IMG/VR virus record: IMGVR_UViG_3300042923_001792 | Span: 1-22,670 of that record | Direction: 5' to 3' (one strand) | From: a virus | Length of the DNA stretch: 22,670 nt | Part shown: positions 10,049 through 22,670 of the stretch, piece after piece | Position numbering within the stretch: position 1 is the stretch's first letter | Layout: each line of letters starts with the position of its first letter | Made by a program: the position numbers and the translations under genes | Notes under the pieces: model-generated | Told to the model about the DNA's origin: nothing | Databases searched by the model: none | What the model saw: the letters and a program-made list of their open reading frames with translations, nothing else

Positions 10049-10450
10049 TTAGCTATCTATTTTCTTTGTTAATTCCACAAAGCCATCCTCTAATATTAAC
10101 TTTCCATTGAAGTCCAATTCTCCAACATAGAATTCTCTCCCATTTTTATCTTTTGAAAAGTACTCTTCGGACTCGTTATCTAGGTAAACTTCATAAATTG
10201 CATCAGCCTCCACCATTGCCACTACAGAAGACTTATCACAATTCATTACATAAAACCCTTTCACGGCTTTAATCAGTATCTTTTTTTCTAAGGTCTTCAT
10301 TCTCTCTTCCAATTTTTCAACATGGTCAATCAAAGCTAGAATAAACCCGCAAATCAAGTCTCCTTCGTCTTGAGTAGTCCATTTTTCATGATGATACTCA
10401 TTTAAAAGAAACTGTTGAAAAGATTTTATATTGTTCTTCAATCCTTCCAC
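10049..10450 (-). CDS. uncharacterised phage protein (133 aa)
   Basis: GTG-started frame with GGAGGTTAATAAATA before it. Residues 1-60 are helical (FILALIDHVEKLEERMKTLE, coiled-coil-like). The second half is beta-rich and acidic (EADAIYEVYLDNESEEYFSK, NGREFYVGELDFNGKLILED). No known motif. The layout resembles small two-domain early phage proteins, and I cannot assign a function. Confidence 0.55.
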   Translation of the reverse strand: MEGLKNNIKSFQQFLLNEYHHEKWTTQDEGDLICGFILALIDHVEKLEERMKTLEKKILIKAVKGFYVMNCDKSSVVAMVEADAIYEVYLDNESEEYFSKDKNGREFYVGELDFNGKLILEDGFVELTKKIDS

Positions 10451-10510
10451 TATTTATTAACCTCCATAATTGATTCGAATTCTCAAAATCTCTAAGTACA
10501 GCTTGCCTCC

Positions 10511-10648
10511 CTATTTGCTCCCACAATAAAAGTGGCACCCTTCTTTGCTGCATTTCTCTTTGGTAAAGCTGCAGTAATACTTATCACCTTTTTTCTGAAG
10601 CTTGCTACACTTTTGCATGTGCCTGATAAAATCCCAATCTTTCTTCAA
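10511..10648 (-). CDS. Cys-rich mini-protein (45 aa)
   Basis: TTG start with GGAGG 8 nt upstream. The product begins MKKDWDFIRHMQKC and carries C14, C26, C33, C38 and C42, with H39 between the last two (KCSKEGCHFYCG). This arrangement suggests one zinc site. A different frame starting at an ATG 5 nt upstream runs only 16 codons. It follows the 209-aa Cys-rich gene by 12 nt. Function unknown. Confidence 0.55.
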   Translation of the reverse strand: MKKDWDFIRHMQKCSKLQKKGDKYYCSFTKEKCSKEGCHFYCGSK

Positions 10649-16134: not shown

Positions 16135-16371
16135 CTATGCTATTTGTTCACTTATACGTTTGGTAAGTTTGTTGTCAAAAAAAATTTCATTCACTTTATC
16201 TATTGATAAGTTTAATTCTTCAGCTAAGTTTGATATCTCTTTTCGACTAAATTCAATCATGCCTAGTTCTTTTCGGTTGTAGGTTTTTAAGGATATACCC
16301 ATCTTTGCTGCTAATTCCTCCTGTGTATATCCCTTTTCAATTCTCATGCCCTTTAGCTTATTAGGATTCAT
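16135..16371 (-). CDS. Cro-like XRE regulator
   Basis: A 78-aa XRE helix-turn-helix protein: NPNKLKGMRIEKGYTQEELA and then AKMGISLKTYNRKELG, with a short helical extension. It is the first gene of the minus-strand operon and is divergent from the CI-like repressor, the classic Cro position. The frame is open up to an ATG at 16395, but that codon is inside an operator; the ATG at 16371, after GAGGTGAG, is the start. It should bind TGGTAA-type operators and shut off the repressor promoter. Confidence 0.8.
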   Translation of the reverse strand: MNPNKLKGMRIEKGYTQEELAAKMGISLKTYNRKELGMIEFSRKEISNLAEELNLSIDKVNEIFFDNKLTKRISEQIA

Positions 16372-16406
16372 TTTTCTCACCTCGCTTATTACCATTTGGT
16401 AATTTT

Positions 16407-16512: not shown

Positions 16513-16893
16513 ATGGAAAGTATCGGTAATAGAATATTAAAGCTTCGTAAGGAATTAAATATGACACAGAAAGAGTTGGCTGATAAAGCTGGAACTACTG
16601 AGGCAACTCTCTCAAGATATGAAAGTGATTTGAGAGAACCTAAAGCTGACATCATCGTAAAAATTGCCGCTGCTTTGGGCACGTCGACCGACTACCTCCT
16701 CGGAAGAACTAACTATAGAGATCAAAATTTTGAGAAAGAGTCTGTAGAAAAAAAGTATGGCTTCGCTACCAAGGCCTACCATAACTTAGATGTTGGCGGG
16801 CTATCAGAAGAGGATATCTCAAAAGTTGAAGAATATATTGAATTGCTGAAGCAGAAGTATAATCCAGATGGAACTTTGAAGAAGAAAGATTAA
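16513..16893 (+). CDS. CI-like prophage repressor (XRE family)
   Basis: A 126-aa repressor. Residues 4-63 (RILKLRKELNMTQKELADKA, TTEATLSRYESDLREPKAD, IAAALGTSTDYLLGR) are an XRE helix-turn-helix. The C-terminal part (EEDISKVEEYIELLKQKYNP) is a short helical dimerisation tail, not a LexA-type peptidase, so derepression must use another signal such as an antirepressor. The strong GGAGG follows the last TGGTAA operator half-site. It is the only clear regulator facing away from the early operon. A second copy of this gene's last 31 codons lies 2 kb downstream (18869-18961). Confidence 0.85.
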   Translation: MESIGNRILKLRKELNMTQKELADKAGTTEATLSRYESDLREPKADIIVKIAAALGTSTDYLLGRTNYRDQNFEKESVEKKYGFATKAYHNLDVGGLSEEDISKVEEYIELLKQKYNPDGTLKKKD

Positions 16894-16898
16894 CTAAG

Positions 16899-16930
16899 AT
16901 ATAGCAGCTAGCTGCTATATTATTTTTACT
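16899..16930 (+). terminator. terminator of the repressor gene
   Basis: A perfect 22-bp palindrome occupies 16899-16920 (ATATAGCAGC and GCTGCTATAT flanking TA), followed by TATTTTTACT. It starts five bases after the repressor stop codon. Confidence 0.8.
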
Positions 16931-16989
16931 CAATAATAGAAAATTTTTCTAATAATAGTATTTCATGTAATTATTAGGGGTGGGGGATT

Positions 16990-17496
16990 ATGACATTAAG
17001 GTTAAACAAATATTCATATCGCTTTGCTGAACAAGTATTGAATAGTAAATTATCATTGAAACAAGAAGTGGAAGATATCTTAACATCTACATCTATAAAC
17101 ATTAGTGAGCTTTCTAGACCTGGATTTAATGCTCTATTAGAAGAGAAATTTGTAAGTAAAGGTTGGGAAAGTCAACCTCCAGTATTTGATGAACCGGGTG
17201 ATCCTTCAGCAAAGATGGACTTCTTAAAAGATCGTATTGGAATTGAGGTAGCATTTGGTCATCCTTCTTTCATTGGTATAGATCTATTAAAATTTCAGGT
17301 TGCTTCATATTCTGGACTTGATAAGATCGATGTTGGTATTTATATTGTTACTACGAAGAGCTTTCAGTCTCATATGAAAAAGCGTCATGAACAAAACTGG
17401 ACAGGCTCTTTATCTTATGAGCGAGTAGTCAGATATCTTCCTCATTTTAAAAGTGCTATTCAGATACCTATTTATGTGATTGGTATAGATATTTAA
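16990..17496 (+). CDS. BglII/BstYI-like restriction endonuclease fold protein
   Basis: A 168-aa protein that matches the BglII/BstYI restriction endonuclease family in layout. The PD-(D/E)xK-like site is KMDFLKDRIGIEVAFGH: D77 and E86 are nine residues apart, the same spacing as D84 and E93 in BglII. The third position (Q95 in BglII) is Ala88 here. FIGIDLLKFQVASYSGL follows, as expected. No dedicated methyltransferase is adjacent, and the phage C5 methyltransferase is 7 kb away in the lytic operon. The Ala88 change may mean altered or lost cleavage. The ATG has AGGGGTGGGGG ahead. It could be a defence cargo gene. Known family facts are from memory. Confidence 0.75.
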   Translation: MTLRLNKYSYRFAEQVLNSKLSLKQEVEDILTSTSINISELSRPGFNALLEEKFVSKGWESQPPVFDEPGDPSAKMDFLKDRIGIEVAFGHPSFIGIDLLKFQVASYSGLDKIDVGIYIVTTKSFQSHMKKRHEQNWTGSLSYERVVRYLPHFKSAIQIPIYVIGIDI

Positions 17497-17534
17497 ACAC
17501 TTTCAAAAACAAATTTCATTTAGGAGGAATAACT

Positions 17535-18134
17535 TTGAACTTAGATTTTCTTTCAACCTTAACTGGTTTAGGCCTAGATGTATTCAATATTGTTCTTTCA
17601 GGATATTCAATATTTAAAAAATCGAATGTTGAAATTTTTTTTGATAAGCTAAATAAGAGTAATCAAAATCTAACCACCATTGGCGAACGTCCTGAACTTC
17701 AAAGATATTTTTTCAAAATCGTTGATGAAGTTTCAAGGGAAGCTAATATTGAAAAACTTGAATCATGGAAAAATGTCGTAATTCATTTAGCTACAGATTT
17801 TCTTGAATTTGAGTATAAAGATAATTTTTTACGGACTCTATCCGATCTAACTGTTTTTGACTTAACTGTTCTTCATAAAATCTATAGTACTACATTTGAT
17901 TTAGAGAGCTTTGAATCTCCACTTATTGAATATTTTGAGACTAAAAATATCAATTCTGGTTTTGTGAAACAATCTTTAAAGCGATTGGCATCACATAACC
18001 TTATCGATGAAAACTTCTTTAATGCTTTTACTTTTAGTGGCTTACAGGACAGCCCTCTCACTAATTTGATTTATTCAAAAAATGATCTTGGAAAAAAATT
18101 CTTAGTATTTGCTTCTGATTGCTCAAATCTATAA
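17535..18134 (+). CDS. uncharacterised cargo protein, possible abortive-infection type
   Basis: A 199-aa protein with a hydrophobic, Gly-spaced N-terminus (LSTLTGLGLDVFNIVLSGYS) that could insert in or touch a membrane. A helical domain follows (LQRYFFKIVDEVSREANIEK, KRLASHNLIDENFF). The end, LIYSKNDLGKKFLVFASDCS, resembles the C-terminal 'TpLGkkF' ending of a group of helical bacterial defence or exclusion proteins (DUF4393-like) that I recall but cannot verify. Start is TTG with AGGAGG 7 nt upstream. It lies 38 nt after the BglII-like gene, so it is probably co-transcribed. No catalytic motif is visible. Confidence 0.5.
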   Translation: MNLDFLSTLTGLGLDVFNIVLSGYSIFKKSNVEIFFDKLNKSNQNLTTIGERPELQRYFFKIVDEVSREANIEKLESWKNVVIHLATDFLEFEYKDNFLRTLSDLTVFDLTVLHKIYSTTFDLESFESPLIEYFETKNINSGFVKQSLKRLASHNLIDENFFNAFTFSGLQDSPLTNLIYSKNDLGKKFLVFASDCSNL

Positions 18135-18328
18135 ATTTTGCTTTTCTATCAAATGTACATGAAAATGCGTTCATAAAAAGGGATATGTATATTTAGATCT
18201 AAATAACAATATCGATGAACCAGGTATTTTATATATAAAATAACCAGTAATAATTTATCTATCATAGGTGTGAAGTTCATGTAGAAAATACTTTAAAGGA
18301 TTTTATTTGACATCAGGAGGAATGATCT

Positions 18329-18841
18329 ATGAATGACACTTCAACAATAAATAAAAATAAAAAGAAGGTTGGCGGATGGCTACTATTGTTTATCGCAACT
18401 CTTATAATTATCTACCCTATAAGTTCATTTATGAAAATTTCTTGGATTCTAAATAGGATCAATTTGCTAGGTGAGCAATATCCAAAGTTTACAACTTATG
18501 GGATACTTGCTATTGTTTTAACCACTCTAATTGCTATTCTAGGCATTTATGCTGGGATATTGCTGTTCAGATTAAAATCAAATTCATTGAAGATCGTAAA
18601 AATTTTTCTAATATTAAAGATTTTAATTACTTGCTTAGATAACTTTTTATTAATTAATTCTGGGGTTCTTGCTGATGTAATTTATGGAGTAGCAATAGCA
18701 TACAAATTGTCCCCCGAAGCTAGTAAAGAAGTTTTAACTAAAGTTGGAACAAAGAATGTCTTACAATCACTTGCATATTCCGGGGTATGGTATGCGTATC
18801 TTATTAATTCGAAAAGAGTCAAAGATACCTATAATTTTTGA
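18329..18841 (+). CDS. DUF2569 family membrane protein
   Basis: A 170-aa, four-helix membrane protein. KKVGGWLLLFIATLIIIYPI opens the first helix; two further helices lie at about 56-78 and 87-105, and the last spans the VLQSLAYSGVWYAYLINSKR region. The GGWLLL start and the terminal W-x-x-YLINSKRVKDTY are the signature of the DUF2569 family, whose role is unknown. ATG with AGGAGGAATGATCT upstream. It is the last gene before the orphan repressor tail. Membrane proteins of this type are frequent cargo in prophages. Confidence 0.75.
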   Translation: MNDTSTINKNKKKVGGWLLLFIATLIIIYPISSFMKISWILNRINLLGEQYPKFTTYGILAIVLTTLIAILGIYAGILLFRLKSNSLKIVKIFLILKILITCLDNFLLINSGVLADVIYGVAIAYKLSPEASKEVLTKVGTKNVLQSLAYSGVWYAYLINSKRVKDTYNF

Positions 18842-18868
18842 TTTTTTATATCCGGCGTAGTCTTATAC

Positions 18869-18961
18869 CTATTAGATGAAAATATTGCTAAGGTTGAAGA
18901 GTATATTGGGTTATTGAAGAAGAAATATAATCCAGATGGGACATTGAAGAAAAAGGATTAA
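18869..18961 (+). pseudogene. orphan 3' end of a second repressor gene
   Basis: The last 31 codons encode LLDENIAKVEEYIGLLKKKY and NPDGTLKKKD, almost the same as the end of the CI-like repressor (EEDISKVEEYIELLKQKYNP, DGTLKKKD). The final 72 nt differ at about 12 positions (near 83% identity), so this is a diverged paralogue rather than a recent copy. No start or ribosome binding site is present. It marks the far edge of the accessory cassette. Confidence 0.75.
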
Positions 18962-18989
18962 AGACCAGAATTGGTCTTTTTTTATTTTT
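18961..18989 (+). terminator. terminator after the orphan repressor tail
   Basis: AAGACCA (18961-18967) and TGGTCTT (18972-18978) form a 7-bp stem with a 4-nt loop, followed by a long T-run. The stem begins at the stop codon. Confidence 0.85.
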
Positions 18990-19072
18990 CGACATATTTC
19001 TCAAGATTTTAGTACCTTTTGCATATATAATTTTAAATGAATTATTAGCACTAGCCTAACAAACAGTCTTTT

Positions 19073-19186: not shown

Positions 19187-20011
19187 ATGCCATGGTTAAA
19201 GACTGGAGTGTTATGCGATAGACAGATTAAAAGTTTGCTAGGCAAGAAAATTTTCATCTATCCTTTTTATGTTGAAAATTTAAAAGGTTCTACCTATAAT
19301 CTAACAGCTAGCATGTATGCATTTTCCGCTTCAGAAAATGAGCTTCTCATTAACGAAAAAGGCAAAATACAAATACCTGCTGGTGAAACTGCTTTAATAC
19401 AAACTGAAGAGAGTATCTTTGTTACTAAAGACATATGTGGTACATATCATTCCAAAGTCAAATTAGTTTCTAAAGGATTATCACATATTGGAACTACCTT
19501 AGACCCTTTATTCTTTGGCACATCGTTAATCGCAGTTCATAATCATTCAAAGCAAGATCAATATATTTCTGTTGGAGAAACTTTTGCCTCAATTATGCTT
19601 CATAAAATGCCAAGCTCTACAAAATTATTGCATGACAATCAACCGTTTAGAAGTGATATTACAAATATGAACATCACAGAGTTTAAATATGACTTGCCTG
19701 AAGAAACAAAAGATGCTATAATTTCAAAAATTGAAGAGTGGAAGAATCAACCATGGCGGACTAATAAACAGTCATTAATTGATATAGTAAAAAATTATGT
19801 CAAGAATAGAGACCGCTCCGGTCATTTCCTTATTCTTAAGTTTATATCGATTGCCTTAAGTATTGCTATTGTGAGTGTTTTCGTTTATCTAAGTTATAAA
19901 AACAAACTAGATGACAAATATATGCCTTATATTATTGCTTTAGTAGGATTTGTTAGTCCAATTATCACTTCAATTGAAGAAATAATAAAAAACTATCTGA
20001 AGGGAGAATAA
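19187..20011 (+). CDS. membrane-anchored dCTP-deaminase-like protein lacking catalytic residues
   Basis: A 274-aa protein. Residues 8-145 follow the dCTP deaminase/dUTPase beta-barrel: [11 protein letters not shown] (CDRxI), [34 protein letters not shown] and [10 protein letters not shown]. Aligned to E. coli Dcd, catalytic S111, R115 and E138 correspond to V91, S95 and A116, while the DP of the nucleotide site (D106-P107) is kept, so deamination is unlikely. After a polar helix (about 165-205), two transmembrane helices follow at about 213-237 and 245-263, facing the membrane with a short end KNYLKGE. A dUTPase lies four nt downstream, so a nucleotide-sensing or defence role is inferred. The ATG has AAAGGATTGTG at distance 7. 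Confidence 0.75.
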
Positions 20012-20015
20012 AAGT

Positions 20016-20444
20016 ATGAAACTATATATTGAGAAGATTAATGAAAAAGCTCAATTACCTAGCTATGCGCATCCAGGAGATGCCGGACTTGATTTATTTT
20101 CAATCGATAATACCACTATAACTCCTGGTGAAATCAAGCTGATTCATACTGGGATAAAAATACAACTGCCACATAATACAGAAGCACAAATTCGTCCTAG
20201 AAGTGGATTGGCTTTAAAAAATGGGATTACTGTCTTAAATACCCCTGGAACTATTGATGAGGGATATAGAGGGGAAATTGGTATAATAATAATAAATCAT
20301 GGAACCGATGAATTTATAGTAACTGAGGGAATGAAAATAGCTCAAATGGTTATCAAACCTATCATAAAAGTGCAAGTTGAACAGGTCGAAAAGCTAACAG
20401 ATTCAGAACGAGGTTCTGGTGGCTTTGGATCAACTGGCTTGTAG
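20016..20444 (+). CDS. dut: dUTP diphosphatase (trimeric dUTPase)
   Basis: A 142-aa dUTPase that hydrolyses dUTP to dUMP and PPi, with all five motifs. They are PGDAGLDLF (20-28), [11 protein letters not shown] (60-70), [20 protein letters not shown] (75-94, D81 catalytic), [10 protein letters not shown] (104-113) and [10 protein letters not shown] (132-141, the P-loop-like C-terminal arm). It starts 4 nt after the deaminase-like gene, with GGGAGAATAAAAGT before the ATG, so the two are co-transcribed. Phage and satellite dUTPases keep uracil out of DNA and can also act as regulatory signals (for example lifting SaPI Stl repression). Here it is expressed from the lysogenic side. Confidence 0.95.
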
Positions 20445-21092: not shown

Positions 21093-22670
21093 CTATTTCA
21101 TTAGTAATTCAATATTACTTAAAGTTGGTTCACTATTAATTAAGTTAATACTAACGCTTGCTCCAACACAAACATCATAACTACCATTATAATGAAAATC
21201 ACCTTCGAAATATCGCGTGCAAGATAAATGACAATCAAAAATCACATAATATTTCCTATGTCCCTCAACAATTATATAGCTAATATCTGGTTCGCATAAT
21301 TCTATTCCATCTATTGTGCCCCAATCAGCCATTAAGCTTGCACATATTATTTGATTTGTCACATCTCCACATGTAACTTCGGCTGCTATTTTTTGTAACA
21401 TTTCATCTATATGTTCTTCCTTACACTCTAACTTTTCAGCTTCTTGCTTTAAGTTATACATTTCTTTTTTTCTAATGTTTGTCCATTGGCATTCACTCAT
21501 AATTTTATCTATCAAATCAACACATTTTTTATATGACCACGAAAAGCTAATCTCACCGAATTGTTTTTTAGCCCAGTGATTATATTTAATACTGTCATAT
21601 CTGAACTCTCTTGTTTTATTCAAAAAACTTTCATATTTATCTATTACACTTTGAATTGCTGAAATTTTGTGTTTTACTTCCGTAAAGCTTGTTACTATTT
21701 TTAATTGTGATGCTCGATTCAGCTCTCTAAATACTTTAGTCACATGATCATGATTTTTTGCGATTTCATCGCACGTTAAATCACTGCATTTAATAAAGAA
21801 GTGAATTGAATAAATAATTTTACTGTGCAAAATGTCTATAACAATATTCTCAATAATATTTGATCTAGTTTTTAAAAAAAACTTTGTTTTGTCATTTGTA
21901 ATAATTGAATCTAATAACTGGTCAGAATGATTTGTAAGAATAAGTTTATCTAGCTGCTCAACTAAAAAATCATATAAAGAAAAATAATGATAATGATCAT
22001 ACCCTATCAGTTCTATAATTTTTATATCGTTTTTATCAATTAAGGAAATCTTATCTTTGTTATTGAATGTATCTGTACAGATTTCGCAATCTTTATATCT
22101 TGAAATCAAATCAATTATCGAAGTTAATCTCCAAACATTTCTTTTATGGTATATATTTTCTATATTATTTTGTACTTCACTAATTTTGACAAAATCATTA
22201 AATTCACTGATATTCTTAGAAAATATATTTATTATGATAGGTAGTACGCTTGAAATCAAAAATTCAACTTCGATTCTCTTAATTGTTACTTCATAATGGC
22301 TTAATGCATTTCTCCACTTATTTAACTCCTTAAACATTCCATAAGTGTGCTCATCAATATCTTGGTTATATAGTATCAGTACCCTGTTAATAGCATCTAT
22401 GAACTTAATCGTTTGTAATTCATTATTGTTTTTATTGTTATTTAATTTAATATTTAGCTCTTTTTCAAAAGCTTTAAATATATCTTCATAGACAAAATAT
22501 TTACTCTTTTTCTCTACCAAATATTTGCATAAAATTTCTAGTGAATGATGTAAGTCAAGAATTATATCTTTAAGATAGAACTCTAAATCATCATCTTTTA
22601 CTCTATCTAATTCAAATAGTTTATTTAGAGATTTCTTAAAAGAATGCATTCCATTATCAATACAATTCAT
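21093..22670 (-). CDS. HEPN-like protein with RX4H motif (525 aa), candidate RNase/defence effector
   Basis: A 525-aa protein that starts at an ATG on the window edge (22670), so the gene may continue upstream. Residues about 35-130 form a helical domain with HHSLEILCKYLVEK and LNKWRNALSHYE: R120-NALS-H125 is the RX4H motif of HEPN-domain ribonucleases, and the helix-loop-helix layout matches. The middle is helical and Lys/Asn/Ile-rich. The C-terminal ~110 residues (YIIVEGHRKYYVIFDCHLSC) are beta-rich and may be a sensor domain. The codon use is more AT-rich than that of the phage genes, which suggests separate acquisition. HEPN proteins often cut RNA in abortive defence or toxin-antitoxin pairs. 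Function here is inferred. Confidence 0.6.
   Translation of the reverse strand: MNCIDNGMHSFKKSLNKLFELDRVKDDDLEFYLKDIILDLHHSLEILCKYLVEKKSKYFVYEDIFKAFEKELNIKLNNNKNNNELQTIKFIDAINRVLILYNQDIDEHTYGMFKELNKWRNALSHYEVTIKRIEVEFLISSVLPIIINIFSKNISEFNDFVKISEVQNNIENIYHKRNVWRLTSIIDLISRYKDCEICTDTFNNKDKISLIDKNDIKIIELIGYDHYHYFSLYDFLVEQLDKLILTNHSDQLLDSIITNDKTKFFLKTRSNIIENIVIDILHSKIIYSIHFFIKCSDLTCDEIAKNHDHVTKVFRELNRASQLKIVTSFTEVKHKISAIQSVIDKYESFLNKTREFRYDSIKYNHWAKKQFGEISFSWSYKKCVDLIDKIMSECQWTNIRKKEMYNLKQEAEKLECKEEHIDEMLQKIAAEVTCGDVTNQIICASLMADWGTIDGIELCEPDISYIIVEGHRKYYVIFDCHLSCTRYFEGDFHYNGSYDVCVGASVSINLINSEPTLSNIELLMK

Follow-up and report, generated by a model that had tools for sequence, protein, structure and literature searches.

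Repressor, cargo genes and a repeated repressor tail

The DNA analysed here, 22,670 nt in length (IMG/VR record IMGVR_UViG_3300042923_001792, positions 1–22,670; hereafter, the window), is prophage DNA of a clostridium-like bacterium and covers the left end of a variable slot of mostly defence-like genes. The following features were identified, with the evidence for each given in brackets.

16135..16395 (-): divergent HTH protein in a Cro-like position (PF01381, E=1.3e-10)
16513..16893 (+): ImmR-type repressor (HTH_3, E=1.9e-18; tail profile, 93.8 bits; AlphaFold2 model)
16765..16893 (+): tail 1, the linker and C-terminal helix common to related repressors (sequence comparison, tail profile)
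16898..16931 (+): terminator 1, a 10-pair stem (16898-16921) followed by a T run (consensus scan)
16990..17496 (+): BglII/BstYI-like type II restriction endonuclease (PF09195, E=7.5e-44; BstYI 1sdo, E=1.7e-8; PADLOC REase_II)
17535..18134 (+): 199-aa protein (p199) with a TTG start (weak phrog_22938 match, E=2.1e-5)
18329..18841 (+): hydrophobic DUF2569 protein (PF10754, E=1.9e-12)
18869..18961 (+): tail 2, the final 30 codons and stop of what was once a repressor gene, an orphan 3' end lacking a start codon (80% identity to tail 1)
18960..18989 (+): terminator 2, an 8-pair stem (18960-18979) followed by a T run (consensus scan)
19187..20011 (+): dCTP deaminase-like protein with a hydrophobic C-terminus, more cargo of the same slot (PF22769, E=2.1e-6)
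20016..20444 (+): dUTPase, more cargo of the same slot (PF00692, E=7.8e-35)
21093..22670 (-): 525-aa protein, more cargo (slot extent)

Based on its Pfam HTH_3 match and an AlphaFold2 model, in which the linker is of low confidence, the repressor has the ImmR-type layout of an N-terminal HTH, a linker and a C-terminal helix. The HTH half comprises residues 1–65 and the conserved tail residues 85–126; the model (mean pLDDT 79.8, based on only 8 sequences) contains an HTH bundle, a helix at residues 73–82, the low-confidence linker and a C-terminal helix at residues 99–115. Using a profile built from the tails of relatives, we found the same C-terminus on repressors whose HTH domains differ greatly (mean amino-acid identity among 20 repressors: 0.47 in the HTH half, 0.67 in the tail). 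The tails are alike because the linker and C-terminal helix are a conserved part of the protein. At synonymous codons, the tail showed no greater similarity than the HTH half (0.500 vs. 0.478 in 190 repressor pairs; 4 pairs significant one way and 2 the other, about the chance level), therefore this conservation is mainly at the protein level. A general recombination signal in the tail, i.e., synonymous identity above that of the HTH half, was not found in the 190 pairs, and frequent homologous exchange between tails is not supported by this comparison. In a phylum-wide sample, no tail of this repressor family was found except in the window's own genome. That genome encodes another repressor of the same tail family at locus L013 (G000:C10:196000-214000; 10255-10629, minus strand), with the same sequence and 3' flank as in IMG/VR 3300042923_001807.

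The end of the repressor gene recurs about 2 kb downstream, as an earlier note on this DNA had described. The last 93 nt of tail 1 (16801-16893) and tail 2 (18869-18961) form an ungapped direct repeat of 93 nt with 74 identical positions (79.6%; BLASTN E=1e-19, searched inside the 2.2-kb stretch), and 13 of the 19 mismatches fall at third codon positions. The repeat unit consists of 30 codons plus the stop (LSEEDISKVEEYIELLKQKYNPDGTLKKKD vs. LLDENIAKVEEYIGLLKKKYNPDGTLKKKD) at 80% identity, where about 83% had been claimed. Each tail is followed by its own terminator, again as described, and hairpins like terminator 2 also lie 3' of the G011 and G001 repressors. Tail 2 continues the reading frame of the DUF2569 gene beyond the TGA of that gene, within a 39-aa frame that scores 53.9 bits with the tail profile; this frame has no ATG, GTG or TTG start and no HTH upstream. 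Tail 2 is an orphan 3' end that encodes only the C-terminal helix and the end of an ImmR-type repressor. It is 81% and 80% identical to the tails of other repressors and 79% to tail 1; this equal closeness shows that it did not arise by recent duplication of tail 1. Chance and misassembly as sources of the repeat were ruled out by the E value, the 20% divergence and the recurrence of second tails in independent genomes, one of which (Petroclostridium X23) is a single 5.5-Mb contig.

Between the tails lie the three genes named in the earlier note: the nuclease and the DUF2569 gene (Pfam PF09195 and PF10754) and the gene of the 199-aa protein, which has no match in Pfam, NCBIfam or PADLOC. The PF09195 match of the endonuclease spans residues 13–167, most of the protein, and no cognate methyltransferase adjoins it (its neighbours are the repressor, p199 and DUF2569 genes). 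The sequence AGATCT occurs 11 times in 56 kb of the locus, cassette interior included, with 24 occurrences expected from dinucleotides. The DUF2569 protein is probably located in the membrane. Beyond tail 2, the dCTP deaminase-like protein also matches TIGR02274 (E=9.1e-9, under that model's cut-off). The dUTPase gene is directly 3' of it (19187-20444), and the two, which have no PADLOC match, may form a defence pair acting on the nucleotide pool. The 525-aa protein matched nothing in Pfam, PHROG or PADLOC. Scans of viral contigs returned no relatives of the nuclease, the 199-aa protein or the dCTP deaminase-like protein, protein searches of phage records returned none of the nuclease or the 199-aa protein, and a family-wide genome search returned none of the 199-aa protein; the earlier home of the cargo was therefore not traced.

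The slot between the repressor and the ImmA-like gene

Twelve scaffolds were compared. In 11 of them the repressor has an ImmA-like gene downstream, and in seven of these 11 a serine integrase match follows right behind that gene; the twelfth (L248) is a contig piece that ends without an ImmA-like gene. The order of the locus is repressor, variable cargo, ImmA-like peptidase and serine integrase. The ImmA-like proteins of G011 and G993 match PF06114, and that of the window's genome has an open reading frame and shares 74% identity with the G011 protein. The distance from repressor to ImmA-like gene ranges from 0.1 kbp in G993, where the slot is empty, through 0.7 kbp (G999), 0.9 kbp (G011), 5.0 kbp (G970), 6.5 kbp (G520 and L250), 8.1 kbp (G379), 8.2 kbp (G340), 13.7 kbp (G015) and 15.0 kbp (Petroclostridium X23) to 28.6 kbp in this genome; in G042 it is 7.9 kbp. 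Tail 2 sits 2 kb into this 28.6-kb slot with cargo on either side, and the variable genes run on to the ImmA-like gene; therefore, the right edge of the slot is the ImmA-like gene and tail 2 is an internal scar. Accordingly, of the model in the earlier note, in which the cargo occupies a slot behind the repressor bounded on the right by the second tail, the slot itself stands and the right boundary moves to the ImmA-like gene, 28.6 kb away. In partial support of this model, relatives have different cargo behind the same kind of repressor, and near-empty sites with one tail occur (G993 and G011).

Across the scaffolds, the slot carries cargo that is defence-like by family name, including AbiU, GmrSD/NsnA-like and SIR2/ThsA-like genes, AAA ATPases of Septu/AriA type, C5 methylases accompanied by MutH, RE_BsaWI or RE_NgoFVII, and genes of the HSDR_N and Shedu families. 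This genome adds a viperin-like radical SAM protein and a UvrD helicase. Such genes would have anti-phage activity if they act as their families do. In this genome, the part of the slot beyond the window (G000:C9, about 36000-60800; L294 and L014) also contains a GapS6a-like N-terminus, IS21-like genes, a UDG-SocA fusion and a thymidylate synthase-like protein, alongside the viperin-like radical SAM gene; the UvrD helicase there forms a pair with HNH.

Exchange between close relatives and second tails in other genomes

Exchange was analysed in one set of near-identical prophages, the Ruminiclostridium trio G340, G379 (R. papyrosolvens) and G520. Their left flanks are 94–95% identical, with the alignment running to a point about 0.7 kb short of where the (first) repressor ends, and their right flanks are 91–92% identical from just before the ImmA-like gene over 9–18 kb. 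In the centre, the HTHs of the repressors differ and the cargo is unrelated. Between these close relatives, the alignments show joint exchange of the putative immunity domain and the cargo. G340 and G379 each contain two intact repressors, the second of which is common to both at 86% identity, and pieces of the early gene upstream lie between the first and the second repressor, so that the second looks like part of a retained older immunity region. Homology between these two prophages stops about 15 nt short of the stop codon of the second repressor, with different cargo behind it. By such alignments, some cargo junctions do lie at repressor 3' ends.

The intact second repressors also bear on the cassette model of the earlier note, which had named a second tail within an intact, independent regulator gene at the same site as evidence against it. 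This is the arrangement in G379 and G340, and it suggests that the orphan tail is the remnant of a former repressor. The tandem state of these two prophages is best understood as a stage that precedes erosion of the old repressor. Tandem intact repressors of another subfamily were found in G171, R. sufflavum and G520.

Second tails recur across genomes. In Petroclostridium X23, an orphan tail of 42 codons lies 1.6 kb behind the repressor, past a SAP-domain gene and two small open frames. This tail is open and well conserved, and compared to the intact tail it has a single mismatch in its first 52 nt and 22 in the 80 nt that follow (p=9e-5). Such a mosaic is suggestive of recombination inside the tail. 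The G970 prophage (IMG/VR 2585428090) carries a frameshifted second tail behind an HSDR_N gene, followed by a terminator unit repeated at 92%, and a weaker case is found in L250, where a 43-nt tail fragment lies directly 3' of the repressor. The codon at which the orphan tail starts differs among the window, X23 and L103. Two further candidates, the decayed single repressor of G999 and the truncated single repressor of G276, were set aside because they are not second tails. In the latter (L224, 7872-7994), the HTH half is gone, a TTCGTTATTTACGAAC palindrome precedes the remaining tail fragment and a transposase-like open frame lies just upstream.

Origin of the second tail and comparison with known systems

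Tail 2 most probably represents what is left of an earlier, replaced repressor. Together with terminator 2, it is 83% identical over 115 nt to the 3' end of the repressor of G011, a member of the same family, above its match to tail 1, and nothing aligns with G011 past the terminator. Tail 1 itself is 86% identical to the G011 sequence at the nucleotide level, with HTH halves that are 47% identical. We propose that recombination between related phages replaces a block that extends to the ImmA-like gene and starts either in the HTH half of the repressor or immediately 3' of the repressor; if the block is replaced as a whole, immunity specificity and cargo would tend to change together. With left junctions often in or next to the repressor gene, the 3' end of the old repressor, or the whole of it, would stay behind. 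Here, an incoming block with the new HTH, tail 1, terminator 1 and the nuclease, p199 and DUF2569 genes would have replaced most of a G011-like repressor, whose last helix and terminator were left before the dCTP deaminase-like and dUTPase genes. The remnant would now lie between these genes and the nuclease-p199-DUF2569 group. This order of events is inferred, and the incoming block is its simplest reading. The displaced repressor is deduced from 115 nt, since no intact G011-like repressor before the same dCTP deaminase-like and dUTPase genes was present among the relatives found. As a whole, we regard this account, in which the repressor-to-ImmA block is replaced jointly and tail 2 and terminator 2 are what remains of a G011-like repressor, as probable, and exchange seems to affect immunity type and defence genes jointly.

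Other origins of tail 2 were weighed against this evidence. In the form put forward in the earlier note, the cargo is a cassette bounded by two repressor tails, its content swapped via homologous recombination in the shared tail. Evidence on whether the tail is a recombination site points both ways. The cargo junction of G340 and G379 at the repressor 3' end and the X23 mosaic are in agreement with recombination near or within tails, as is the terminator unit that flanks the cargo gene of L103 on both sides (92%). The slot, however, ends at the ImmA-like gene rather than at tail 2, synonymous identity over the 190 pairs is not raised in the tail, the two tails of the window are 20% divergent, and the orphan tails begin at different codons in the window, X23 and L103; this origin is therefore unlikely. 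A plain tandem duplication, in which deletion or cargo insertion removed the HTH half of a second intact repressor and nothing passed between phages, would fit the tandem arrangement of intact repressors of this tail type in G379 and G340, and the tandems of the other subfamily. Yet the tails of other phages are as close to tail 2 as tail 1 is, terminator 2 is of the G011 type, and the early-gene remnants between the repressors of G340 and G379 fit joined immunity regions and not simple duplication, which makes plain duplication quite improbable.

Tail 2 could also be functional, translated by readthrough or from an unannotated start into a C-terminal-helix peptide that modulates the repressor or serves as a decoy for ImmA. 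The excess of third-position differences from tail 1, the single stop codon between its frame and the DUF2569 gene and the likewise open and well-conserved orphan tail of X23 are compatible with translation. However, the 39-aa frame has no start codon, a frameshift interrupts the tail copy of L103, that of L250 is a fragment, and the third-position bias is expected if divergence preceded orphaning, inside a working repressor; we give a functional tail very little credence. On the preferred account of joint block replacement, a more general role for the tail can be considered: it might be a standing junction in this ImmR/ImmA prophage clade, where a new HTH half and defence genes enter together and orphan tails record the exchanges. 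This extension is tentative, and rather doubtful at present; if true, a single step would give a phage both another immunity group and other defence cargo.

The slot is of the same kind as the prophage antiviral hotspots reported by Rousset et al. 2022, which include a Vibrionaceae hotspot between cI and the integrase. As in the part of that report considered here, variable genes, restriction and other defence genes among them, turn over rapidly between conserved phage genes, in the order regulator, variable genes, peptidase and integrase. In our data, conserved phage genes flank the variable ones on both sides in 11 of the 12 scaffolds, the content turnover is high in the Ruminiclostridium trio, and known defence families are present (AbiU, GmrSD/NsnA-like, ThsA-like SIR2, restriction, Shedu and viperin-like). 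Compared to the hotspots in that part of the report, the slot is larger (up to 28.6 kb), and two features go beyond their description there, namely that the HTH half of the repressor changes with the cargo in close relatives and that scars of repressor 3' ends are left in the locus. This joint change of repressor specificity and cargo links the immunity of the lysogen to the defence genes of the prophage, which are usually treated apart. Should a single recombination event change both, the scars of repressor tails could be read as a record of swaps, and the stretch from an ImmR-type repressor to ImmA would be a simple place for new defence genes in clostridial prophages.

In ICEBs1, ImmR is cut by ImmA at F95-M96, in the linker ahead of the last helix (PMC8960796). 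The loci described here resemble this system in the size of the repressor (about 126 residues), in its layout of HTH, linker and C-terminal helix, and in the pairing of the repressor with a PF06114 peptidase that adjoins an integrase; by analogy, the repressor of the window may be cleaved by ImmA. Unlike in ICEBs1, the cargo parts the repressor from the peptidase gene in most loci, and the integrases found here are serine integrases. A defence gene in the lysogeny region of a prophage is also found in S. aureus phage 80alpha, where tha of the Tha/Ith system is carried on the cI transcript and expressed in the lysogen (PMC11087260), whereas a terminator separates repressor and cargo in the window.

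A short motif, TTCGACA, lies 3' of the terminator behind tail 2 (18988-18994) and of both terminator copies of L103 (8380-8392 and 9975-9990), and the equivalent site of G011 reads TGCGACA. TTCGACA, the complement of a Spo0A-box core, may be part of a cargo promoter or a chance occurrence.
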